Source: Ianthella basta (lineage: Eukaryota > Porifera > Demospongiae > Verongiida > Ianthellidae). Taken from it: a stretch of DNA of 64,000 bases. The first letter of the stretch is position 1. Each line of letters starts with the position of its first letter. The notes under the pieces are model-generated. The model saw nothing but the letters and a program-made list of their open reading frames with translations, searched no databases and was not told the DNA's origin. The position numbers and the translations under genes are program-made. The stretch is from contig OZ025879.1 of NCBI GenBank assembly GCA_964019415.1, positions 203,501-267,500 of the forward strand, given 5' to 3'. Shown piece by piece: positions 989 to 45,353 of the stretch.

Positions 989-10395
<9,407 letters not shown>

Positions 10396-10750: not shown

Positions 10751-13700
10751 TTAGGCCACGTTTGTCATCCTGAATGTCCATGCTGGTTTGTCTCCTAGCA
10801 ACTGACGGTCAACGTCTGTTGGTATGTTAATGGTGAGGCCAGAGGGGGAGGAGGCGGTCCATGTGAGTGGACCAGTGTGCCCCAGCAGTTCCACTGTGGT
10901 CCCAGAGGAGGTGATGGGCGCTACCAGAGTGAACTTGCCGCCTGCACAGGAGGTGACACAGAGTGACAGAGCGGCAGGGTGACACAGGGTGACACAGAGT
11001 GACAGAGCGGCAGGGTGACACAGAGTGACAGAGCAGCAGGGTGACACAGGGTGACACAGAAGAGTGACGGAGCAGCAGGGTGACACAAAGTGACAGAGCA
11101 GTGGGACAGGTCTTTACATGTCACCCACACGTCAGTCTAGTCATCTGTGTCACTCACACCCCAAGTACCCCACACAACATGGAGCTAGCCCACTACAGCA
11201 GTGTGCAGCAGTGGCACACTCTACCAGCTCCACACACACAGCATGCAGTTGAGGGGTTCACACCTGGGAGTGCTCACCTGGTGTTAGGGAGCTGAAGGTG
11301 GTGGCATAGGTGTACTGTCCATTCTGCGGGGAAGCAGGTCACAGGTGCACTAGGTCCATAGCATCTACAGAGGTAGCTCACCTTGGATGAAGTGTACCAC
11401 GTCTTCTTGTCAGAGGTGTCAAACTGCACTCTCCAGGGGAAGGAGGAGTAAATGGCCTCACCGTTCACCTGAGGAGGGGAAGGGCGGGGTGACGGTGTGC
11501 CCCGCCTCCTCCCTCTCCACCCACCCACTCACCTCCAGCCAAGCACCAATGTCCAGAAGCCGCTCTTCAAAGATGGGCTCAATCCGTCCATCTGCAGTTG
11601 GGCCGACATTAAGGAGCAGGTTGCTGCAGAGTGGGGGGTGAAGGAGGGGAGCATCTGAGAGTGGGGGGCAGGCATCTCAGAGGGTGTTGAGTAGGAGTAT
11701 AGGACAGTCGCAGTTGGTCTGACTCACCCGTTGCAGGCTACTGTCTGCACAAGCTGGTAGATGAGCTGATCAGATGAGATGTACGGATCACTCTGCACAC
11801 ACAACACACACAGCACTGTAACACATGACAGACCACACACAGTAGCACCAAACCTACATCCCTCCGGTCATATCCCCAGGAGTAAGCCTGAATGGTGAAG
11901 GCACTCTCCCACTTGTTGTTCACAAGGTGTCCTGGGGTGTACCTGGAGGAGGGCGGAACCAGTGGGGAGTGGCGGGGAGCAAGGGGATGTGAGTGTGTGT
12001 AAGGGAGGCTGGCTCACGCAGCTCACCTGTCACTGCCGGTGATGTAGTCACCAACACAGCCTAGTCCACATCGGTTGTTGATAACAATGCTGTCCCTCAC
12101 AGGACTCTCATTGTACACCCAGCTGCGGAACTTAGGGGAATCCCAGTACTGTGTGGTGTGCTGACAGGGGGCATCCCCATCCCCATCATTCCAGAGGACC
12201 ATCGGCTGAAGGAGCAGGAGAGGGAGACACTGGGGCTGTCGCCCAAGGCTCCAACTAGGAGACCACTCTCACCTTGTAAGCATTGATCATGTCCATCATG
12301 GTGGGGTTACAGATCTTGTCAGGGAAGTTGGTTGTGGAGCAGTTGTCTGCCGCATCCTGCAGTGATGGACACATCCTTCTCACAGAAGAGCCACACCCCT
12401 TCCCCACACCCTCCCTGGGTGCCCCACCCACCTCCTCATACAGTGGGTTGTACCACTCCCTCAGGCTGTGGTAGAGTCCCATGATGAGTCCCTCCTTGAC
12501 GACACTGTTGGTGAGCTCCCCCACCAGGTCCTGATGGGGACCTAGGTCAGCACTGTTCCAATTCCAGTGCTGACTACTGGGGAAGTTGCACCATCCCTCG
12601 TGATGTTTGGAGATCAAGACCACATCTGAGGGGAGGGGGGAGGGGCAGTGAGGGACAGGAGTGGCCTGGGGAATGGCTGCTGTTTGGAAGGCTTACATTT
12701 TGCTCCTGCTTTGGAGAACAGGCTGGCCCAGTGAGTTGGGCTGAACATCTCAGCACGAAACATTGGAGGGAAGTCGTAGTACCTGAGACAAGCAGAACGT
12801 GCTTCAGTCACATGGAACACCTCAGAGACTAATGTCTAAAGGGAGGGTAGTCGCACAGCACTCACGAGAACTTTGGTCCATTGCAGGGGAACTTTTCAGG
12901 GTCCACCCCAGAGCAGCCGTAGACCCTGTTGTGAAACTCCACCACTTCTGAGTTGCCTGTTTCCAGCAAGTGCCAGTACCACTCGGAGACATAGGAGGGC
13001 ACGCTGAACAAACCCCAGTGGAGGAAAATACCAAACTTAGCATCATCAAACCAACGAGGGCGGGGCCGTAGACGGGTTGTCTAGACAGAAGACAAGCAGC
13101 AGCTGTAGCTAGCGCCCGACAAGCGCTGCAGGTCAAGAGCACTCACATTGAAGGTCCCGTCATAGCGGAAGCGAGGACAGGTCCCTGGGCCGACACCGAG
13201 GGAGCACTTGACCCCAGCCGGCCAGGGCCACATCACTACGATCAGGTTAGAGTCACCAGCAGGTGGGCGTGGTGGGCAGGGGTGGGCAGGGTGGATGGGG
13301 TGGTGGTCTCACCTTTTACTGTGTTCTCTGGGTACTCATAGACCACCCTTGGCTTCTCTCCCTGGAGGTCACAGTAGAAGCTGTGCAGGACCACGTAGTT
13401 GAAGTAGCCTGACCCTGTGTGGTCTGTGTGTGTGGAGGAGGGAGGGGAGAACATGAGCAGTGTACACCCCACTCACTGGTAGTTGGGCCCACCTCCAACA
13501 CTCACCTCCACCGGTGTAGGCCAATCGAATCCCATTTGTGGAGTTCATGGGATCTGCAGGAAGCTGCAGGAGCAAAGGTGGCAAGGGTCACGTGACCTGA
13601 CACTGCTGCTAGTGCAGGCAGTACTAGTCCGTCAGCCGACGCCAGGTCTGGTTGTAGGTAGCAGGACTCACGGGTAGGGCGTCGTTAAGGCTGCCCAGTC

Positions 13701-14001
13701 TGTGACAAGCTTTCTTGCTCAGCACGTACTGGTAGGCTGGCGCCTCCCCGAGCGAGGCGCACGCCGCTGGGAGCAAGCTCTTGTCGACATTGGCGCAGAA
13801 GCTGAAGTAGTAAGTGGACTCCTGTCCGGAGTAGTCGGTGCCGTTGACGGTAAAGGGACCCGCAGCTGCGATCTTAGTCAAATCGTACGTCTCACAGGCG
13901 CCTTCTTGGTTCGTGGCGGGTATCTGGAACTGGCAGCCCGCCCCAGCAGAGTGCTGGAACAAACTCAACACGCACAAGAGCAGCAGCACAGCAGCGACCA
14001 T
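10751..14001 (-). CDS. MRH-domain alpha-L-fucosidase, copy 1 (GH29), 15 exons
   Basis: Retaining exo-alpha-L-fucosidase that removes terminal fucose from glycans, expected in lysosomes or secreted. I joined 15 exons: 13672-14001, 13506-13563, 13313-13423, 13147-13235, 12866-13080, 12697-12782, 12432-12625, 12273-12356, 12027-12205, 11858-11942, 11728-11792, 11533-11623, 11382-11468, 11278-11323 and 10751-10941. They give 636 residues. Residues 1-22 are a signal peptide. Residues 23-150 hold six cysteines (23, 36, 69, 81, 99, 147) and motifs such as [22 protein letters not shown] and FYCD, which look like a mannose-6-phosphate-receptor (MRH) repeat. The GH29 domain follows: [38 protein letters not shown]. 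The likely nucleophile is Asp396 in [10 protein letters not shown]-terminal beta-domain ends the protein. Human FUCA1 is about 466 residues and lacks the N-terminal domain. It is one of three tandem copies and the most diverged. Confidence 0.92.
10955..11105. repeat. GTGACACAGAGTGACAGAG repeat in fucosidase copy 1 intron 14
   Basis: Degenerate tandem GGTGACACAG / GTGACAGAGC units in the last intron of copy 1. Similar open frames on the opposite strand are repeat artefacts. Confidence 0.8.
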
Positions 14002-14020
14002 CTTCTCCAAGCGGTATGAT

Positions 14021-14026
14021 CACGTG
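14021..14026. promoter_or_regulatory. CACGTG E-box upstream of fucosidase copy 1
   Basis: Palindrome ATCACGTGAT lies 20 bp upstream of the copy 1 ATG, inside the 69-bp gap to copy 2. CACGTG is the core of the CLEAR element bound by TFEB/MITF-type factors at lysosomal genes; its role here is inferred. Confidence 0.45.
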
Positions 14027-14070
14027 ATTACGCACTTAATTAAATTTAGGAAATGCGTGGGCGGATTTGG

Positions 14071-17000
14071 TTAGTCCTTGAGAAACTGCAATTTGAAAGT
14101 CCATGCACACTTGTCTCCAAGGATGCTGCGGTCCAGGTCAAGGGGCACCTTGATGTCCATCCCTCCCCCTCCTCGGGAGGTCCACTCTAAAGGTGAGCTG
14201 TACCCAAGGAGACCTACAGTGGTGGCGGTAGTGGTCACAGGCTGTGTCAGCACCACAGTACCACCTGAGGGGCGGGGCAGGGCGGGGCAGGGCAGGGAGA
14301 GGGGAGGGGGAGTACACACAGTGTGGTGGCAATGGACATTGTATGCGTTCAGAGTGAGACATACCAGGAGTGACTGATTCAAAGGTGATGGCGTAGACAC
14401 TCTTCCCGTCCTGTGTGGTAAGGTGGGGAGGTGCTGCACTGGGGATGGGCACAACTCACTACAGAGGTAGCTCACCTTGGATGAAGTGTACCACGTCTTC
14501 TTGTCAGAGGTGTCAGACTGCACTCTCCAGGGGAAGGAGGAGTAGATGGCCTCGCCGTTCACCTGAGGAGGGGAAGGGGCGGGGTGACGGTGTGCCACGC
14601 CTCCTCCCTCTACACCTCCCCACTCACCTCCAACCAAGCACCAATGTCCAGAAGCCGTTCTTCAAAGATGGGCTCAATCCGTCCATCTGCAGTTGGGCCG
14701 ACATTAAGGAGCAGGTTGCTGCAGAGTGGGGGGTGAGGGAGGGGAGCATCTGAGAGGGGTAAGGTGTATAGGACAGTCACAGTTGGACTGACTCACCCGT
14801 TGCAGGCTACTGTTTCCACAAACTGGTAGATGAGCCTCTCAGTCGAGAGGTAGGGATCAACATTCTGTGATGGAAGCAAGGAAACCAGTTGCCACTCAGC
14901 TCATCACGACACACAGCAGTAGCACCAAACCTACATCCCTCCGGTCATAGCCCCAGGAGTGAGCCTGAATGGTGAAGGCACTCTCCCACTTGTTATTCAC
15001 AAGGTGCCCTGGGGAATACCTGGAGGAGGATAGAACCGATGGGGAGTGGATGAATCAGTTGTCCTCCACAATACTCCAACACCGCCCACTTACCGGTCAC
15101 CTCCATTAGTGTAGTCTCCAATGCAACCTTCCCCACACCTCTCGTTAATGACAATGCTGTCCCTCACGGGGCTCTCATTGTACACCCAGCTACGGAACTT
15201 AGGGGCATCCCAGTATTCAGAGGTTTTTTGACATTTAGCATCTCCAGCTCCATCATTCCACAGGACCATTGGCTGCAGCAAAGGGAGAGAGACAGGAGGA
15301 GATAGTTTGAGCCAGTCCTTTGTGTGTACCCCATGGTGCATCGTGCCAGCTGTCTCACCTTGTAAGCATTGATCATGTCCATCATGGTGGGGTTGCAGAT
15401 CTTGTCAGGGAAGTTGGTTGTGGAGCAGTTGTCTGCCTCATCCTGCAGTGATGGACACATCCTTCTCACAGAAGAGCCACACCCCTTCCTGGTGCCCCAC
15501 CCACCTCCTTATACAGTGGGTTGTACCACTCCCTCAGGCTGTGGTAGAGTCCCATGACAAGCCCCTCCTTGACAACACTGTTGGTGAGGTCTCCCACCAG
15601 GTCCTGATGGGGACCCAGGTCAGCACTGTTCCAATTCCAGTGCTGACTACTGGGGAAGTTGCACCATCCATCATGGTGCTTAGAGGTCAAGACCACATCT
15701 GGAGAGGGAGGGGAGTGAGGGGCAGTGAGGGACAGGAGTGGCCTGGGGAATGACTGCTGTTTGGAAGGCTTACATTTTGCTCCCGCTTTGGAGAACAGGC
15801 TGGCCCAGTGAGTTGGGCTGAACATCTCAGCACGAAACATTGGAGGGAAGTCGTAGTATCTGAGACAAGCAAAAAAGAATGAATCATCAGTTTCAGCAGT
15901 GGCTGTGTTCCATAAATGTCCTTACGAGAACTTTGGTCCGTTGCATGGATACTTATTTGGATCAATCCCTGAGCACCCGTAGACTCGGTTGTGAAACTCC
16001 ACTGTGTCCACTAGTCCCTCATGCAGTACTCTCCAGTACCACTCGGCCCCATGGTGATCGGCAAAAGACGGCACACTGAACACACCCCAGTGCAGGAAGA
16101 TACCAAACTTAGCTTCATCAAACCAGGATGGGCGGGGCCTCAGGCGAATGGTCTGATACACAGAGACAGTGATTACATCACCCATGCCCCCCCCCCCCCC
16201 CCCACACACACAGTCACTGTTCTTACATTCCATGTTCCATCGTAGGTGAAGCGAGGACACACTCCACTGCCAGCACCAAGAGAGCAGGCAAACTGGGAGG
16301 GCCACCTCACTACATGCACACATAGAGTGGCACACCAGTAGTCAGTTGTGAGCTGGTGAGGTGGTGTGATGCAGATGGAGGGGTGATGTGATGCAGGTGG
16401 TTGTACCTTTCACTGTGTCCTGTGGCCACTCATATGCCGATACCGGGCGGTCGATGGCAGAAGACTGGTCACAGTAGAGATCATAGACCACAGCATAGGG
16501 GTACTCTGCAGAGAACTTGGTGGCTGTCAAGGAAGACAAGGAGGGATGAAGGCAGCATCCGTCTAGCAAGCAGTGAGCCACACAAGGCTTACCGTTCATC
16601 CTGTACACTATCCTGATACCCTTGGTTGAGTCCATTGGATCCACTGGGAGCTGCACAGCATGAAGAAGGAAGGATATTAACTCCCCTCCCCCTCTCTCCC
16701 AGTTGGATGAATGCTCTGCCGTGCACTTCCGCAAGTGGAGTTGCAATCACCGACTCCAATCACCATTACCATTAAAACTAAGCACTCTGGTTAATTTCTC
16801 ACGAGGCCGGCCGTAGCCGATCGCTAATTTGGTCTTACCGCAACGACGTCGCTCAGTCTCCCCAGTGCCATGCATTCCTTCCCCTTCGTGTACTGGTACG
16901 CTGGGGCTTGCCCAACATCCACACACTCCTTCGGGAGGAAGTCCTCTGAGACGTTCCCGCATAGGCTGAAGTAGTACGTGGCTGGCTCCGTCTCGCCACT

Positions 17001-17189
17001 ACTGCCCGTGAGCTGGCGGGAGCCGTTGACGACGAAAGGGCCCAAGGCGGCTTGCTTGCTCAGGTCGTACGTCTCACAGAGACCGGCATCCCGCGTAGAC
17101 GGCACCTGGAAGCGACAATCGTCTGCTACAGCAAAACACGGCGGCAGCAAGAGGCAGATTATCAAAGCAGTCAACGGAAGAGCAGCCAT
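14071..17189 (-). CDS. MRH-domain alpha-L-fucosidase, copy 2 (GH29), 15 exons
   Basis: Same architecture and intron positions as copy 1. The exons sum to 649 residues: 16839-17189, 16593-16650, 16407-16523, 16227-16309, 15926-16152, 15774-15859, 15505-15698, 15359-15442, 15094-15272, 14935-15019, 14797-14864, 14628-14718, 14476-14562, 14365-14410 and 14071-14264. The signal peptide is [20 protein letters not shown]. The N-terminal MRH-like region carries [40 protein letters not shown] and YDLYCD. The likely catalytic nucleophile is Asp407 in LWNDGAGDA. The start codon is 55 bp from the stop codon of copy 3, and the stop is 69 bp from the start of copy 1. It is much closer in sequence to copy 3 than to copy 1. 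Confidence 0.92.
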
Positions 17190-17197
17190 GTTTTAAT

Positions 17198-17203
17198 CAC
17201 GTG
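17198..17203. promoter_or_regulatory. CACGTG E-box upstream of fucosidase copy 2
   Basis: ATCACGTGAC lies 9 bp upstream of the copy 2 ATG, within the 55-bp gap to copy 3. It is positioned as in copy 3 and close to the position in copy 1. Confidence 0.45.
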
Positions 17204-17244
17204 ACTAGTTCAGTCTGAGAATGCGGGGGCGGGTGGTGAGCTAG

Positions 17245-19368
17245 CTACGTGAGAAATTGCAATTTGAAGGTCCATGCACACTTGTCTCCAAGTATGCTGC
17301 GGTCCAGGTCAAGGGGCACCTTGATGTCCATTCCTCCCCCTGCTCGTGAGGTCCACTCTAAAGGTGAGCTGTACCCAAGGAGACCTACAGTGGTGGCGAT
17401 AGTGGTCACAGGCTGTGTCAGCACCACAGTACCACCTGAGGGGCGGGGCAGGGCGGGGAGAGGGGAGGGGGAGTACACACAGTGTGGTGGCAATGGACAT
17501 TGTATGTGTTCAGAGTGAGACATACCAGGAGTGACTGATTCAAAGGTGATGGCGTAGACACTCTTCCCGTCCTGTGTGGTAAGGTGGGGAGGTGCTGCAC
17601 TGGGATGGGCACACCTCACTACAGAGGTAGCTCACCTTGGATGAAGTGTACCACGTCTTCTTGTCAGAGGTGTCAGTCTGCACTCTCCAGGGGAAGGAGG
17701 AGTAGATGGCCTCACCGTTCACCTGAGGAGGGGAAGGGCGGGGTGATGATGTGCCCCGCCTCCTCCCTCTACACCTGCCCACTCACCTCCAGCCAAGCAC
17801 CAATATCCAGAAGCCGTTCTTCAAAGATGGGCTCAATCCGTCCATCTGCAGTTGGGCCGACATTAAGGAGCAGGTTGCTGCAGGGAGGGGGGGAGGGGAG
17901 GGGAGCATCTGAGAGTGGGGGCAGGCATCTCAGGGGGTGTTGAGTAGGAGTATAGAACAGTCGCAGTTGCACTGACTCACCCGTTGCAGGCTACCGTCTC
18001 CACAAGCTGGTAGATGAGCCTATGAGTTTTGATGTAGGTATCAACATTCTGCGATGGGAGCAAGGAAACCAGTTGCCACTCAGCTCTTCATAACACAGTA
18101 GCACCAAACCTACATCCCTCCGGTCATAGCCCCAGGAGTGAGCCTGAATGGAAAAGGCACTCTCCCACTTGTTCTCCACAAGATGCGCTGGGATGTATCT
18201 GGAGAAAGATAGAACCGATGGGAAGTGGTGGAAATAACAGACTTCTGACAAACCATAACACCAGCCACTTACCGGTCACCTCCATTGATGTAGTCTCCAA
18301 TGCAACCCCTCCCACACCTTTCGTTAATGACAATGCTGTCCCTCACGGGGCTCTCATTGTACACCCAGCTGCGGAACTTAGGGGAATCCCAGTACTGTGT
18401 GGTATGCTGACAGGGGGCATCCCCATCCCCATCATTCCAGAGGACCATCGGCTGAGGGAGCAGGAGAGGGAGACACTGGGGCTGTCGCCCAAGGCTCCAA
18501 CTAGGAGACCACTCTCACCTTGTAAGCATTGATCATGTCCATCATGGTGGGGTTGCAGATCTTGTCAGGGAAGTTGGTTGTGGAGCAGTTGTCTGCTGCA
18601 TCCTGCAGTGATGGACACATCCTTCTCACAGAAGAGCCACACCCCTTCCTGGTGCCCCACCCACCTCCTCATACAGTGGGTTGTACCACTCCCTCAGGCT
18701 GTGGTAGAGTCCCATGATGAGCCCCTCCTTGACAACACTGTTGGTGAGCTCCCCCACCAGGTCCTGATGGGGACCCAGGTCAGCACTGTTCCAATTCCAG
18801 TGCTGACTACTGGGGAAGTTGCACCATCCATCATGGTGCTTAGAGGTCAAGACCACATCTGGAGAGGGAGGAGTGAGGGGCAGTGAGGGACAGGAGTGGC
18901 CTGGGGAATGGCTGCTGCTGTTTGGAAGGCTTACATTTTGCTCCAGCTTTGGAGAACAGGCTGGCCCAGTGAGTTGGGCTGAACATCTCAGCACGAAACA
19001 TTGGAGGGAAGTCGTAGTACCTGAGACAAGCAGAAAAAAAAAGTCAGCAGTTTCAGCAGTGGCTGTGTTCCATAAATGTCCTTACGAGAACTTTGGTCCG
19101 TTGCATGGATACTTATTTGGATCAATCCCTGAGCACCCGTAGACTCGGTTGTGAAACTCCACTGTGTCCACTAGTCCCTCATGCAGTACTCTCCAGTACC
19201 ACTCGGCCCCATGGTGATCGGCAAAAGACGGCACACTGAACACACCCCAGTGCAGGAAGATACCAAACTTAGCTTCATCAAACCAGGATGGGCGGGGCCT
19301 CAGGCGAATGGTCTGATACACAGAGACAGTGATTACATCACCCGTGCACACACACACACACACACACA

Positions 19369-19417
<49 letters not shown>

Positions 19418-21520
19418 CACTGTTCTTACATTCCATGTTCCATCGTAGGTGAAGCGAGGACACACTCCACTGCCAGCACCAAGAGAGCAGGCAAACTGGG
19501 AGGGCCACCTCACTACATGCACACATAGAGTGGCACACCAGTAGTCAGTTGTGAGCTGGTGAGGTGGTGTGATGCAGATGGAGGGGTGGTGTGATGCAGA
19601 TGGAGGGGTGGTGTGATGCAGATGGAGGGAAAGTGTGATGCAGATGGAGGGGTGGTGTGATGCAGATGGAGGGGTGGTGTGGTGCAGATGGAGGGGTGGT
19701 GTGATGCAGATGGAGGGAAAGTGTGATGCAGATGGAGGGGTGGTGTGATGCAGATGGAGGGGTGGTGTGGTGCAGATGGAGGAGTGGTGTGATGCAGATG
19801 GAGGGGTGGTGTGATGCAGATGGAGGGGTGGTGTGGTGCAGATGGAGGGGTGGTGTGATGCAGATGGAGGGGTGGTGTGATGCAGATGGAGGGGTGGTGT
19901 GATGCAGATGGAGGGGTGGTGTGATGCAGATGGAGGGGTGGTGTGATGCAGATGGAGGGGTGGTGTGATGCAGATGGAGGGGTGGTATGATGCAGATGGA
20001 GGGGTGGTGTGATGCAGATGGAGGGGTGGTGTGGTGCAGATGGAGGGGTGGTGTGATGCAGATGGAGGGGTGGTGTGATGCAGATGGAGATGGAGGGGTG
20101 GTGTGATGCAGATGGAGGGGTGGTGTGGTGCAGATGGAGGGGTGGTGTGATGCAGATGGAGGGGTGGTGTGGTGCAGATGGAGGGGTGGTGTGGTGCAGA
20201 TGGAGGGGTGGTGTGATGCAGATGGAGGGGTGGTGTGGTGCAGATGGAGGGGTGGTGTGATGCAGATGGAGGGGTGGTGTGATGCAGATGGAGGGGTGGT
20301 GTGATGCAGGTGGAGGGGTGGTGTGATGCAGGTGGAGGGGTGGTGTGATGCAGGTGGAGGGGTGGTGTGGTGCAGATGGAGGGGTGGTGTGATGCAGATG
20401 GAGGGGTGGTGTGATGCAGATGGAGGGGTGGTGTGGTGCAGATGGAGGGGTGGTGTGATGCAGATGAAGGGGTGGTGTGATGCAGATGGAGGGGTGGTGT
20501 GGTGCAGATGGAGGGGTGGTGTGATGCAGATGGAGGGGTGGTGTGATGCAGATGGAGGGGTGGTGTGGTGCAGATGGAGGGGTGGTGTGATGCAGATGGA
20601 GGGGTGGTGTGGTGCAGATGGAGGGGTGGTGTGATGCAGATGGAGGGGTGGTGTGATGCAGGTGGAGGGGTGATGTGATGCAGATGGAGGGGTGATGTGA
20701 TGCAGATGGAGGGGTGATGTGATGCAGGTGGTTGTACCTTTCACTGTGTCCTGTGGCCACTCGTATGCCGATACCGGGCGGTCAATGGCAGAGGATTGAT
20801 CACAGTAAAGATCATAGACCACAGCATAGGGGTACTCTGCAGATAACTTGGTGGCTGTCAAGGAAGACATGGAGGGATGAAGGCAGCATCCATCTAGCAA
20901 GCAGTGAGCCACACAAGGCTTACCGTTCATCCTGTACACTATCCTGATACCCTTGGTTGAGTCCATTGGATCCACTGGGAGCTGCACAGCATGAAGAAGG
21001 AAGGATATTAACTCCCCTCCCCCTCTCTCCCAGTTGGATGAATGCTCTGCCGTGCACTTCCGCAAGTGGAGTTGCAATCACCGACTCCAATCACCATTAC
21101 CATTAAAACTAAGCACTCTGGTTAATTTCTCACGAGGCCGGCCGTAGCCGATCGTTAATTTGGTCTTACCGCAACGACGTCGCTCAGTCTCCCCAGTGCC
21201 ACGCATTCCTTCCCCTTTGTGTACTGGTACGCTGGGGCTTGCCCAACCTCCACACACTCCTTCGGGAGGAAGTCCTCTGAGACGTTCCCGCATAGGCTGA
21301 AGTAGTACGTGGCTGGCTCCGTCTCGCCACTACTGCCCGTGAGCTGGCGGGAGCCGTTGACGACGAAAGGGCCCAATGCAGCTTGCTTGCTGAGTTCGTA
21401 CGTCTCACACAGACCGGCATCCCGCGTAGACGGCACCTGGAAGTGACAACCGTTCGCTACAGCAAAAGACGGCCGCAGCAAGAGGCAGATTATCAAAACA
21501 GTCAACAGAAGAGCAGCCAT
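17245..21520 (-). CDS. MRH-domain alpha-L-fucosidase, copy 3 (GH29)
   Basis: Third tandem copy, with the same 15-exon layout. The first exon (from 21520) encodes signal peptide [20 protein letters not shown] and the MRH-like region ([30 protein letters not shown]). The last exon ends FKLQFLT and stops at 17245-17247. The GH29 motifs [23 protein letters not shown] and [11 protein letters not shown] are intact. Coding exons and several introns are nearly identical to copy 2, so this is a recent duplication. The intron after the DTVK exon is enlarged to about 1.2 kb by a 22-bp minisatellite, and the next intron holds a CA microsatellite where copy 2 has a C-run. The exon with [20 protein letters not shown] resembles copy 1 more than copy 2, which suggests gene conversion. 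Two CACGTG boxes lie just upstream of the ATG. Confidence 0.9.
19346..19415. repeat. (CA)n microsatellite in fucosidase copy 3
   Basis: About 70 bp of CA repeat in the intron following the WNV exon, starting about 15 bp from the donor. Copy 2 has a short C-run and CA at the equivalent place (16190-16212). Confidence 0.85.
19560..20730. repeat. 22-bp minisatellite in fucosidase copy 3 intron
   Basis: About 53 copies of GGTGGTGTGATGCAGATGGA plus two bases, with G/A variants (GTGGTGC or GTGATGC) that recur in higher-order blocks. Copy 2 carries only about two units at the same intron position (16358-16400). Long histidine- and proline-rich open frames on the minus strand are products of the repeat. 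Confidence 0.95.
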
Positions 21521-25358: not shown

Positions 25359-28300
25359 GATCCTCAACCTCCCCTCCTAGAGCCTTACTCTGCTCCATCT
25401 ACACACACCATTTCTTGTCTTTGCACTTCATCACAACCACGAGGTCGGCCAGGTTCTTCTTAGCTGTTGCCACTCCTGCTGAGTCATTGAGCTGCAGAAA
25501 CAAGGGACCAAGACAACAGTTTCAACAATGCAGAATGAGTTACATGGAACAAAAGAGCCCCCCCCCCCCCCCCCCAACACACACACACACCTGCATTGAG
25601 AGCTCCAAGTGCTTGCAGGCAAAGAGGTAGGCTTTCTTGTGCTCCTCCATCTCAGTGTAGGCGTTCCCTAGACACCAGCATGCCCTGGCAGCACCAAACC
25701 TACCAAGGAGGAAGTAGTTCAGTCTCAACTGGTCAATCCACTCCACCCACCCACCCACCCAGATAGCCCCACCAATAGCAGCGCAGCATTCAGCCCAGAA
25801 CACAGCACTACACACTCACTTGTCATCGAGCTCCTCCGCGAAACAGAGATGCTTGTGAAGGTACTTTGTGGCCATGACGTGGTCCCCAGCCAGTGAGTAG
25901 GTGTTGGCCAAGCTGAAGCAAGCCTGTGCTTCCAGCGCTTTGTTCTTCAGTTGCTGCGACAGTTCCATTGCCTGCCTGAAGGTAGGATGAACACACATAC
26001 AGGAGAGAGAGGGAAAGAAAGACACTTTGGGACTGTTGACCTTGACACATGCCAGTCATGCCATGAGATGTGTGTGCAAAGAATGACAAGTATACAAGTT
26101 AATGTAGTAGAGGCTCGTGCCACGTTGTCTAGCAGATTTATGGGGCATTGATGAGCATTCACGTAGCTGTAGGTCTGGTTCCAGAAAAATGTTTCAACCA
26201 CGAGGGTGTTCATCAGTTACAAAACTGATGAAGACCCTCGTGGTCGAAACATTTTACTGGAACCAGACCTACAGCCACGTGAATCCTCATCAACGCTCCA
26301 CAAATCTGCAAGTATACAAGATGTGGCCTCTATCTCATGGAGGCTGTGAGCTCTCCTCCAGTCCACTCACTCGTAGCACTGCTCGGCCTCACTGTACTGG
26401 CACAGATAGAGGTGGGTGTTGGCCAGGTTCACGTAGGTTCTCCTCAACGCAGGCACATCACCGAGTGGGGCAACAGCCTTCAACCGCTGCACATGAAGGG
26501 TGGTACAGAAGCACGGGGTTACTGCTGGACTGGAGTCACCGAAGCAGACACAGCTCGTGTGGTTCTCACCTTTGAGTAGCACTGCACAGCAGCTTGGAAC
26601 TCTCCCTGCAGGCAGTGCACACTGCCCAGACTGGCATACACCCGGCCCTGGCCACGGAGGTCACCCATTTTGGTCACCAGCTCTAAATGCTCCCTGTGAG
26701 CAAGAGAAACCACACCAAGGTGAAGACACAGGCAGCACTGTCATTCATGTACTGGCAATGTTGCACTGCCCTCCATGTTATGACAGCCACACACACCATG
26801 TCATGGCTCGACAGTGACACTCCCCATGTCACAACAGTGACAACCCCTGGTGTCATGACAGTGACAATCCTGCTGTCATGACAGTGACAATACCCATGTT
26901 ATAACAGTGACAACCCTTGGAGTCATGTCAGTGACAATCCTGCTGTCATGACAGTGACAATCCCACCCACCATGTTACACTACTACACCAATCACTCACC
27001 TGTAGTACTGAACTGCCTTCCTGAGGGTCACCTTGGACTCCTCCTCCCTCCTGCTCTGCTCCACCATATTCTTGCCCAATGCATGGAACACTGACCCCAG
27101 TGTGTACAGAGCACGGGACTCCCCCTCCTGCACACACATGACAGGAATACACTGTACAACAACCAACATACCTCTCCTCCCTACCCCCCTCCCCCCTCCA
27201 ATTGTAAGAATGACCAGAATATGACAGAAACAAGGGTCTGGAAATCGTGACGTGTGACGTGACGTGCACAGACACCTCATTGCAGTGCAAACCGCAAGTA
27301 CTAGTGTGTGCCAGTAACAGCAAGCCGCCAAACCCACAACATCCCGGGAGCAACCCTTGAACTACTTCTGAGTCACGCCTTCAATGAAAGCAGTGATGCT
27401 GGCCCTGCCAAGCTCCGATAGTGAAAGGTGTTTAAAAAGAAATTATGAAACACCAAGTGTATGGCGCAGTGGGAAACTGCACAAACAAGTGTTCATTACA
27501 GCTCACGGCTCATGTTACCAGACATGGGATAGGGTGACTAGAGCTAGGCTGGGACTAGCCTCGTTCCCAGGCCCTTCGCGTTAATTCCGGGGGGAGGAGA
27601 AAAAGGGCCTGGGAGCCACTGTTCTGTGACGTCATACTTCCATATTGAAATGGCGCGTCGACGGAGGATTGCATAAGGTTGAAAAGTCAATGGGCGGCAA
27701 TGTGCGCGGCCTTCGCAAGGCTCTGCAAATGCAGAGTTTGCTCGTCGGACGTTTACTCATTGTTCAGCTGAAAGCTGATGAAGAAAGACCTTCCTGGGCA
27801 CCTTAGTCGGCTGCTGATGGTGGCAATCGAGTCCTACACGAGAAAAAAAGTAAGATAGAGCACCAGTTTCGTCCGCCCTTGCGCACGGTACCCCACTTGT
27901 TGTAGTTGAGTTTTATGAATAATATACGAGCGTGTCAGTTTCCGTTCCCCTACTTTTGGGGGAAAGTTTGCGCATGTGCAAACAGTGTACACCAGGCTGT
28001 CCTTCCCGCCCACGCTAATTATCGCAGATGGCCTGGGGACGAGGCCAACTCTCTCGCAAATGTATGAAAACACCTCTCTACCACAGACAGTACCCTTCGG
28101 CCACCATGGCCTTCAGTACATGTTCGCCCCCCTCCCCACTCACACACACACTGACACAATACACATCCTCTGGTTGTTCCTTCCCCGCCAGTACTCACCA
28201 TGTCCTTAAGCTCCCTGCACATGTCCAGGTACAGCTTGCCGACCTCTGCGGCGTGCTGGTAGCTCCCCATAGCCCGGAGGGTGTTGGTCATGTTAGCAGC

Positions 28301-28621
28301 TGCTTGGGCCTCCTCCCTCCGTTCGCCTGCCCTCCTCGCGTTGGCCATGTCCCTCGAGTACACGTCCAGAGCTCTGTCATACCGCTTCACATAGAAGTAG
28401 GCGTTTCCCAGTTGACTGTATAGCGCGCTCAAGGCCACAGGGTCGGCAGGGGAGGCGGCCAGGGCCTCCTCCAGATACGCTATCCCCGCCTCCCACTGCC
28501 CCTCCTTGCACAGGTGCTCTCCCTGGATGGCCAACTCCAATGCAGGGTCCTCTATCAAGACTTCGGCCTCTACGGGTGGACAATCGGCGCACTGTGACAC
28601 TTCTTGATCTCTCGGCTCCAT
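23368..28621 (-). CDS. GPSM: GPSM1/2-like (AGS3/LGN/Pins) TPR-GoLoco protein, 12 exons
   Basis: Receptor-independent regulator of Gi alpha that links cortical Gi-GDP to the spindle-orientation machinery. Exons 28199-28621, 27000-27127, 26570-26693, 26371-26486, 25820-25975, 25591-25699, 25409-25491, 25174-25301, 24947-25056, 24714-24836, 24144-24443 and 23368-23517 sum to 649 residues; human GPSM2 has 684. The first 380 residues are TPR repeats (for example ALYTLGSVFHALGKNMV, GRVYASLGSVHCLQGEFQAA, YVNLANTHLYLCQYSEAEQC, CFSLANTYSLAGDH). Three GoLoco motifs follow near residues 509-526, 589-608 and 623-641; each ends in the (D/E)DQR triad whose arginine contacts the nucleotide. The second is split by the last intron. 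The linker holds basic serine motifs. GPSM1 versus GPSM2 cannot be decided; a single pre-duplication ancestor is likely. Confidence 0.94.
26117..26316. mobile_element. Palindromic foldback element in GPSM intron
   Basis: Two arms of about 85-95 bp are near-perfect inverted repeats around 26222: the left arm carries GTAGGTCTGGTTCCAG and ACCACGAGGGTGTTCATCAG, the right arm their complements. No coding capacity. It looks like a small non-autonomous foldback or MITE copy within the intron between exons 4 and 5. Confidence 0.75.
26820..26965. repeat. Degenerate GTCATGACAGTGACAATCC repeat in GPSM intron
   Basis: Several imperfect copies of a 20-45 bp unit built on TGTCATGACAGTGACAATCC in the intron between exons 2 and 3. 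The unit contains the short palindrome TGTCATGACA. Confidence 0.7.
27128..28198. other. First intron of GPSM, about 1.07 kb
   Basis: No coding exon seen. Contains the short palindromic GCCTCGTTCCCAGGCCC element (27545-27640) and a related half-site near 28028-28050, otherwise unannotated sequence. Confidence 0.6.
27545..27640. mobile_element. Short palindromic repeat (CCTCGTTCCCAGGCCC family)
   Basis: CTAGCCTCGTTCCCAGGCCC is followed about 50 bp later by GGGCCTGGGAGCCA, an imperfect inverted copy. A related palindrome with GCCTCGTTTCCAGACGC and GTCTGGGAACGAGACT is at 46079-46138. Two copies with the same ends indicate a small MITE family. Confidence 0.55.
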
Positions 28622-28747
28622 GTCAGGTCTTCTCGATCGACTCGCACGTTCAAAAGTGGCGGCGCGAGGTCACTTATACGGCTGCCATCTTCACATCAGG
28701 AAGTCGCACACACCAGCTGGTGGCACGGTGGGTAGTGACAATGAATA

Positions 28748-44321: not shown

Positions 44322-45284
44322 CTAAACTTTATATCCAGCATGCTTAATATATCCTGCACAATCAGCTGCCTTGACTTCCATAAAAGCTGAATATATGACT
44401 AATCTTGGATTTTGACAGGATTGATAGACAGCTGCATTCTTCTGCAGTTCTCGTTTCACTTGGCTGAAAACTTCTTCAATGGGGTTCATATCTGGACTGT
44501 ATGCTGGTAAGAACCACAACAAACAACTAGCGTTATCTACCAAATCTTGAACCTGCTGAACGTGGTGTATGGATGCATTGTCCATGATCAGTATTGATCT
44601 CGGGTTGACTCCATCAAAAGGCATCATAACGGGAAGAACTGACCTTTCAATATAATCACAAAAGTGGATGCCATCAACACCACCTTCTAGCAATTCAACA
44701 TCTTCAATTCCTCGTGTTGACATCGAAGCTAAGGCAGAAAATCGTTTCCCGCGCCCCATCAGCTTCTGACTCACTGGTGCAATTCCTCTTAGGCTGTATC
44801 CCATCCTTCGCAAACTGTCCCTGCGATCGACACCAGATTCATCCAACCATACAAAGTATGATGCGTCGATGTCTTCTATTCGAACAGAAAAGGCTGCTCT
44901 CTCTGCTTCTGATCGCGTCAAAACTAAGTGTCGTATCTTTCTCCTTGTGAGTCCCAAACGCTGTGTGGTCCTACAAATCGTCGGGATAGATACCACCACG
45001 CCTGCTTTCTCTTCAAGATACCGCTGAACTTCGTCCAAGTAAATTCCTGGATTCTCAAAAATGACGTTGAGGACCAGCGTTTCTTCTAGACTTGTTAACG
45101 TTCTCGGTCTACCAACGCTTACCCTGCTTGCAACGTATCCGGTTGCTAAGAAGAGACCGACGATCCTTCTAACCGTTCTTGCAGAGACATACAGTGATTC
45201 CGCAATTTCGTCCGGATTAGCCTCCTTATAGACGCTCTGCCAAACAATCCGCCACCGAAGGTCTTCTGAAAAAGGAACAGGCAT
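44322..45284 (-). CDS. DD34E transposase, Tc1/mariner-IS630 superfamily
   Basis: 320 residues, MPVPFSEDLRWRIVWQSVYK. The N-terminal half holds two helix-turn-helix segments (EIAESLYVSARTVRRIVGLF and GVVVSIPTICRTTQRLGLT) separated by a basic GRPRTL hinge (GRPR-type AT hook). The catalytic half carries VWLDESGVDRRD (first Asp), ILIMDNASIHH (second Asp) and YSPDMNPIEEVFSQ (Glu); 34 residues separate the second Asp from the Glu. It cuts at the inverted repeats and inserts at TA. The frame is complete with no stop or frameshift. The start is 70 bp from the right inverted repeat, mirroring the partner open frame. Confidence 0.93.
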   Translation of the reverse strand: MPVPFSEDLRWRIVWQSVYKEANPDEIAESLYVSARTVRRIVGLFLATGYVASRVSVGRPRTLTSLEETLVLNVIFENPGIYLDEVQRYLEEKAGVVVSIPTICRTTQRLGLTRRKIRHLVLTRSEAERAAFSVRIEDIDASYFVWLDESGVDRRDSLRRMGYSLRGIAPVSQKLMGRGKRFSALASMSTRGIEDVELLEGGVDGIHFCDYIERSVLPVMMPFDGVNPRSILIMDNASIHHVQQVQDLVDNASCLLWFLPAYSPDMNPIEEVFSQVKRELQKNAAVYQSCQNPRLVIYSAFMEVKAADCAGYIKHAGYKV

Positions 45285-45353
45285 GTTTCACTAGGCTTAC
45301 ACCGTATAGGATACTGCTTATACGCAAAGACGTCGTTTTAGAGCCCCATTTGC

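Follow-up and report, generated by a model that had tools for sequence, protein, structure and literature searches.

Human FUCA1, an alpha-L-fucosidase of family GH29, is built without an MRH (mannose-6-phosphate-receptor-like) domain, and such domains are, to our knowledge, known from receptors and from sugar-processing enzymes in which they form a subunit of their own. The receptor CI-MPR (IGF2R) comprises 15 repeats. In glucosidase II an MRH domain works with a glycosidase and, as set out in a passage of PMC6272264, it has a subunit to itself, where it binds glycans with mannose in the service of a GH31 enzyme of the endoplasmic reticulum. The locus described here is a 64,000-nucleotide stretch of the genome of the sponge Ianthella basta (the window; GenBank assembly GCA_964019415.1, contig OZ025879.1, here C12:203501-267500 of a 209-Mb genome in 96 contigs), in which three consecutive minus-strand genes, g1, g2 and g3, are modelled as GH29 fucosidases that carry an MRH-like domain of their own. 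With a probability of roughly 0.57 these are animal FUCA1-type GH29 fucosidases, secreted or lysosomal, whose MRH-fold accessory domain is probably no longer a lectin for mannose or mannose-6-phosphate (M6P) and would position or regulate the enzyme.

The products of g1-g3 are 46-48% identical to human FUCA1 (PDB 7PLS) over 424-425 aligned positions. The 436-residue 7PLS chain aligns from its residue 6 and has no MRH-like domain in front, so that for FUCA1 the first-pass annotation of this DNA was right in saying that the animal enzymes lack one; a further difference is an extra stretch around NRVYGCSG...PCNGP that follows the HWG motif in g1-g3. With the CI-MPR repeats the N-terminal domain shares the motif order YYxxxC, Q, LG, IxxxY, CD and W...C, and with CI-MPR domain 5 the absence of the same two cysteines. 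In contrast to the receptor with its 15 repeats, each sponge protein has a single repeat that is fused to an enzyme and that is without the pocket Arg and Tyr.

Architecture of the fucosidase genes

The exon borders of g1-g3 (Table 1) were set by hand at GT/AG sites, and GT...AG borders in 42 of 42 introns are a consistency check only, since the borders were placed there. Each gene has 15 exons, the phases of which agree across the copies, and each is open in frame after splicing; read along the minus strand, the cluster opens at 21520 with the copy 3 start codon and finishes at 10751 with the last base of the copy 1 stop codon. The order along all three predicted proteins is a signal peptide (judged by eye), the cysteine-rich N-terminal MRH-like domain, GH29 and then Fucosidase_C. 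Because a single exon, exon 4, carries the final MRH strand together with the opening residues of GH29, which align with RYTPDW of FUCA1, the MRH-like domain and GH29 as modelled belong to one gene, in three copies, and the earlier placement of the MRH exons in the same gene as GH29 stands. Intron 3 of g3 (1,225 bp) is filled by a minisatellite whose 22-bp unit recurs about 53 times (window 19563-20731), compared with 97 bp for intron 3 of g2, and open frames of 552 and 510 residues in copy 3 were rejected as false frames running through this repeat.

In the enzyme half the GH29 catalytic model scores 368-372 bits against a curated cut-off of 25.2, and Fucosidase_C 42-54 bits against one of 25.6, in all three copies. 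A passage of PMC9548408 names D225 of FUCA1 as the nucleophile and D276 as the acid/base, as well as E289, and counterparts of these residues are found in each copy by alignment, with the numbering mapped by hand. The fucosidase is predicted to be active.

Relationship of the N-terminal domain to MRH repeats

TYYFS(F/L)C, GIR(L/I)xY and YCD occur in all three copies, with six cysteines counted from the first of the domain to YCD, as the first-pass annotation had them. Its view that the domain closes at YCD after about 125 residues does not hold, because the domain extends as far as the cysteine in (V)KC or FAC, giving a length of about 160 residues with one further cysteine before GH29; copy 3 also departs from the Y-D-L layout that had been described, having YEL in place of YDL.

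The case for MRH is carried by profile-profile comparison. Set against the cores of eight CI-MPR repeats from the PDB, the domain gave a probability of 91 (P 9.5e-7). A larger set of 12 MRH repeats was made up of seven units of this genome's own CI-MPR-like locus and five from the PDB, with intron-cut units (including the last of a 793-residue frame) and three bovine rows excluded; which of the PDB rows are human and which bovine is in part our assumption. Here the score was 44.0 over 139 columns, a value reached by none of 300 column shuffles (maximum 24.0), and the reversed profile gave 15.5. Single copies scored 30.2, 33.9 and 34.3, and 200 residue shuffles each of g1 and g2, the two copies so treated, rose no higher than 24.2 and 19.8 respectively. 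Among the positive controls a hand-joined CD-MPR-like protein scored 68.5, and the genome's own glucosidase II beta 43.2 over 52 columns, similar to the MRH part of g1-g3; six of six GH29 segments, as negative controls, scored 9.3-12.7. The predicted MRH homology of the N-terminal domain, earlier proposed from its motifs, is well supported by this comparison.

Cysteines and sugar pocket

The cysteines of YYFxxC, of CD and of the domain end are present in all three copies. Missing from all three are the column cysteines aavC, GDxC and xCxY, and there are extra cysteines elsewhere; of the usual cysteines, the one other than GDxC and xCxY is gone with another lying about 10 residues further on, as is likewise so in one repeat of the genome's CI-MPR-like gene. 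We take the GDxC and xCxY cysteines to form a disulphide pair in CD-MPR. Both are also missing from CI-MPR domain 5, which a passage of PMC7481795 places among four carbohydrate-recognition domains, and so the loss of the pair is compatible with an intact fold.

By column count, the pocket Arg, present in 10 of 12 MRH rows, is replaced by Tyr in each of the three copies, and the pocket Tyr, present in 9 of 12, by Val. The full Q-R-E-Y set, which we assume to be the sugar contacts with Tyr as the fourth residue, is found in none of the copies. The role of the pocket Arg is taken from a passage of PMC7481795 (R391, located by motif at chain position 389 of 6V02, an offset of two), and the legend for domain 9 in the same source gives Gln, Arg, Glu and Arg. 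Judged by these residues, a mannose- or M6P-binding reading of the domain, as once put forward, lacks support, and the companion idea of self-sorting to lysosomes by M6P is without direct support.

Selection and evolution of the cluster

Ratios of nonsynonymous to synonymous substitution (dN/dS, NG86) over the N-terminal domain are 0.13 for g2-g3, 0.27 for g1-g2 and 0.22 for g1-g3, the two comparisons with g1 being saturated (dS 1.7 and 2.0); for GH29 the range is 0.22-0.26. These estimates show coding constraint on both halves. Being 94.5% identical in GH29 and 96.9% in MRH, g2 and g3 are on this evidence recent duplicates. The DNA identity of g1 to g2/g3 is 55-79% in exons 1-5 and 14-15, 93-99% in exons 6-8 and 12-13, and 78-93% in exons 9-11, and several introns are nearly identical between g1 and g2/g3. 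This mosaic suggests gene conversion confined to the GH29 part, with the MRH part diverging separately.

Readings of the N-terminal domain

The favoured reading is that an MRH-related domain was fused between the signal peptide and the GH29 catalytic barrel and that, probably no longer binding mannose or M6P, it would now be a built-in accessory domain. Such a domain could pack on the enzyme or on its partners, for the positioning of substrate, the shaping of oligomers or the regulation of the enzyme, and would correspond, in cis, to the glucosidase II subunit that carries MRH, or to those repeats of CI-MPR that do not bind sugar.

A number of points weigh against this. Many CI-MPR repeats are MRH domains yet not sugar binders, which makes the loss of Arg and Tyr silent on the role of the domain, and the alignment is gapped near both of these columns. 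The pocket Gln and Glu are present in all three copies (in 7 of 12 and 8 of 12 MRH rows respectively, by the same column count), and because they are kept some sugar binding is possible. As regards homology, the isolated domain matches the Pfam model CIMR in one of three copies (E 0.0034, best 17.9 bits against a cut-off of 22.5), and ATG27 is matched in two of three (19 against 27 bits with the whole protein, E 2.2e-4 with the isolated domain), both models being presumably of the MRH type. Neither gives a match above its gathering score in g1-g3 or in the isolated domains; the Pfam comparison suggested in the first-pass annotation did bring up CIMR and ATG27, all below cut-off. The isolated domain also draws weak Pfam matches of other kinds, namely Folliculin_C (E 0.12, two of three copies) and GH141_M (E 0.19), and a profile search of the PDB returned two rows, trichomaglin (34 positions, E 0.22) ahead of CI-MPR (120 positions, E 1.1).

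Of the alternatives the one that survives best, though it is itself unlikely, is that the domain has a different glycan or a protein as its ligand, fucosylated matrix glycans for example, bound by a remodelled pocket or by another face, and would so be a new GH29 binding module. Fusion to a glycosidase together with purifying selection speaks for it, as does the identical replacement of the lost Arg and Tyr (by Tyr and Val) in diverged copies; it overlaps the favoured reading, which leaves the ligand open. Rather improbable is a working lectin for mannose-type or phosphomannosyl glycans, whether on substrates or for lysosomal self-sorting. This would accord with the MRH homology from profile comparison, with the Gln and Glu kept in all copies and with CI-MPR domain 5, a carbohydrate-recognition domain in the cited passage of PMC7481795 without the same two cysteines, but the exchange of Arg for Tyr and of Tyr for Val in three of three copies argues against it.

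An unrelated cysteine-rich domain with a chance likeness to MRH is very improbable. The sub-threshold Pfam matches would fit it, as would a weak PDB profile match ranked after an unrelated protein; however CIMR and ATG27, two separate models, both match, and the full-length profile alignment exceeds 300 of 300 shuffles and six of six negative segments, on which grounds chance similarity is rejected. Least credible of all is an artefact of the gene models in which exons 1-3 form a separate MRH gene directly upstream of each fucosidase, and it is rejected since exon 4 bridges both domains, with frames that match at all junctions in the three copies and an exon 5 start that has no signal peptide by eye.

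Genomic context

At least three further GH29 genes with a signal peptide, three of them in tandem, lie on the same contig at C12:7.33-7.34 Mb (C12:7328500-7343800). They resemble g1-g3 in being FUCA1-type and in standing as three tandem copies, one of which (hand-joined) shows about 45% identity to g1-g3. They differ in exon layout and in having no MRH, the signal peptide being joined directly to GH29 in three of three. A search of the genome for GH29 gave at least 23 matches, all within the window cluster or this second cluster. Searches with the N-termini of g2 and g1 gave 10 and 8 matches among the best candidates, with 10 of 10 and 6 of 8 falling inside g1-g3 or their introns; the remaining two for g1, at E 4.0 and E 9.8, have the look of chance matches. 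Among the best-scoring candidates genome-wide, an MRH domain of the g1-g3 type is found only in g1-g3, although distant copies may escape such a search. Prokaryote contigs gave 60 pattern matches and no relatives. In the open frame of mitochondrial COX1 (contig C96), 12 TGA codons are read as Trp and 6 AGA codons as Arg, the latter at positions that we take to be conserved arginines, as would be expected of a non-bilaterian animal or something closely related.

Other MRH-related genes are present in the genome. A CI-MPR-like locus (C21:5552500-5562400) holds many MRH units, several of them within the one 793-residue open frame, and a gene for glucosidase II beta lies on C17 (PF13015 E 5.8e-22). 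CD-MPR-like tandem matches (PF02157, best E 1.2e-5) are seen at C16:2097800-2104800 and C16:2.099-2.146 Mb, in steps of about 4.3 kb, and at C13:1356500-1366400, with three within 8 kb; an expansion of putative M6P receptors on C13 and C16 would be unusual. Elsewhere in the window are a FANCA-like stretch at 5690-6061 on the plus strand (PF24783, E 8.8e-6, 26.0 bits against a cut-off of 27.2), and on the minus strand a TPR stretch at 28022-28669 (TPR_12 E 9.2e-9), which we take to be GPSM/LGN-like, and, at 44325-45287, an open frame of 321 residues that encodes a DDE_3 transposase domain (E 5.4e-29).

Table 1. Positions in the window of the three modelled fucosidase genes and their parts
Feature	Position	Strand	Basis and details
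g1	10751..14001	-	636 aa; PF01120 E 6e-111, PF16757 E 1.3e-10, PF00878 E 0.021 (below cut-off)
g2	14071..17189	-	649 aa; PF01120 E 8.2e-110, PF16757 E 2.3e-14, PF09451 E 0.0014 (below cut-off)
g3	17245..21520	-	648 aa; PF01120 E 4.4e-110, PF16757 E 3e-14, PF09451 E 0.0065 (below cut-off)
g1 exon 1, signal peptide and first MRH half (YYFSFC, AYQY, LG)	13672..14001	-	gene model
g2 exon 1, signal peptide and first MRH half	16839..17189	-	gene model
g3 exon 1, signal peptide and first MRH half	21170..21520	-	gene model
g1 exons 2-3 (13563-13506, 13423-13313), second MRH half, GIRLAY and FYCD	13313..13563	-	gene model
g2 exons 2-3 (16650-16593, 16523-16407), second MRH half, GIRIVY and LYCD	16407..16650	-	gene model
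g3 exons 2-3 (20981-20924, 20854-20738), second MRH half	20738..20981	-	gene model
g1 exon 4, last MRH strand (WPAGVKC), linker and GH29 start	13147..13235	-	gene model; GH29 start by FUCA1 alignment
g2 exon 4, last MRH strand (WPSQFAC), linker and GH29 start	16227..16309	-	gene model; FUCA1 alignment
g3 exon 4, last MRH strand, linker and GH29 start	19430..19512	-	gene model; FUCA1 alignment
g1 exons 5-15, GH29 catalytic and C-terminal beta domain	10751..13080	-	gene model, Pfam
g2 exons 5-15, GH29 catalytic and C-terminal beta domain	14071..16152	-	gene model, Pfam, FUCA1 alignment
g3 exons 5-15, GH29 catalytic and C-terminal beta domain	17245..19312	-	gene model, Pfam

Implications

No fusion of MRH with a fucosidase is among the matches listed in the open-licence literature, which counts weakly for novelty. 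The pairing of MRH with GH29 would bring two known families together in a new way, and may already exist unremarked in public proteomes. A tentative extension, no better than the doubtful side of possible, is that an animal glycosidase captured an MRH domain and made of it a new module for binding partners or carbohydrates other than mannose, so that a cis enzyme-plus-lectin-fold fucosidase would stand beside ordinary FUCA1-type genes. As modelled, the cluster joins MRH to a hydrolase of lysosomal type in an early-branching animal, where the domain is still under selection after the loss of half of the classical sugar grip. The three genes permit a direct test of the use that an enzyme makes of an MRH fold which is possibly not reading mannose.

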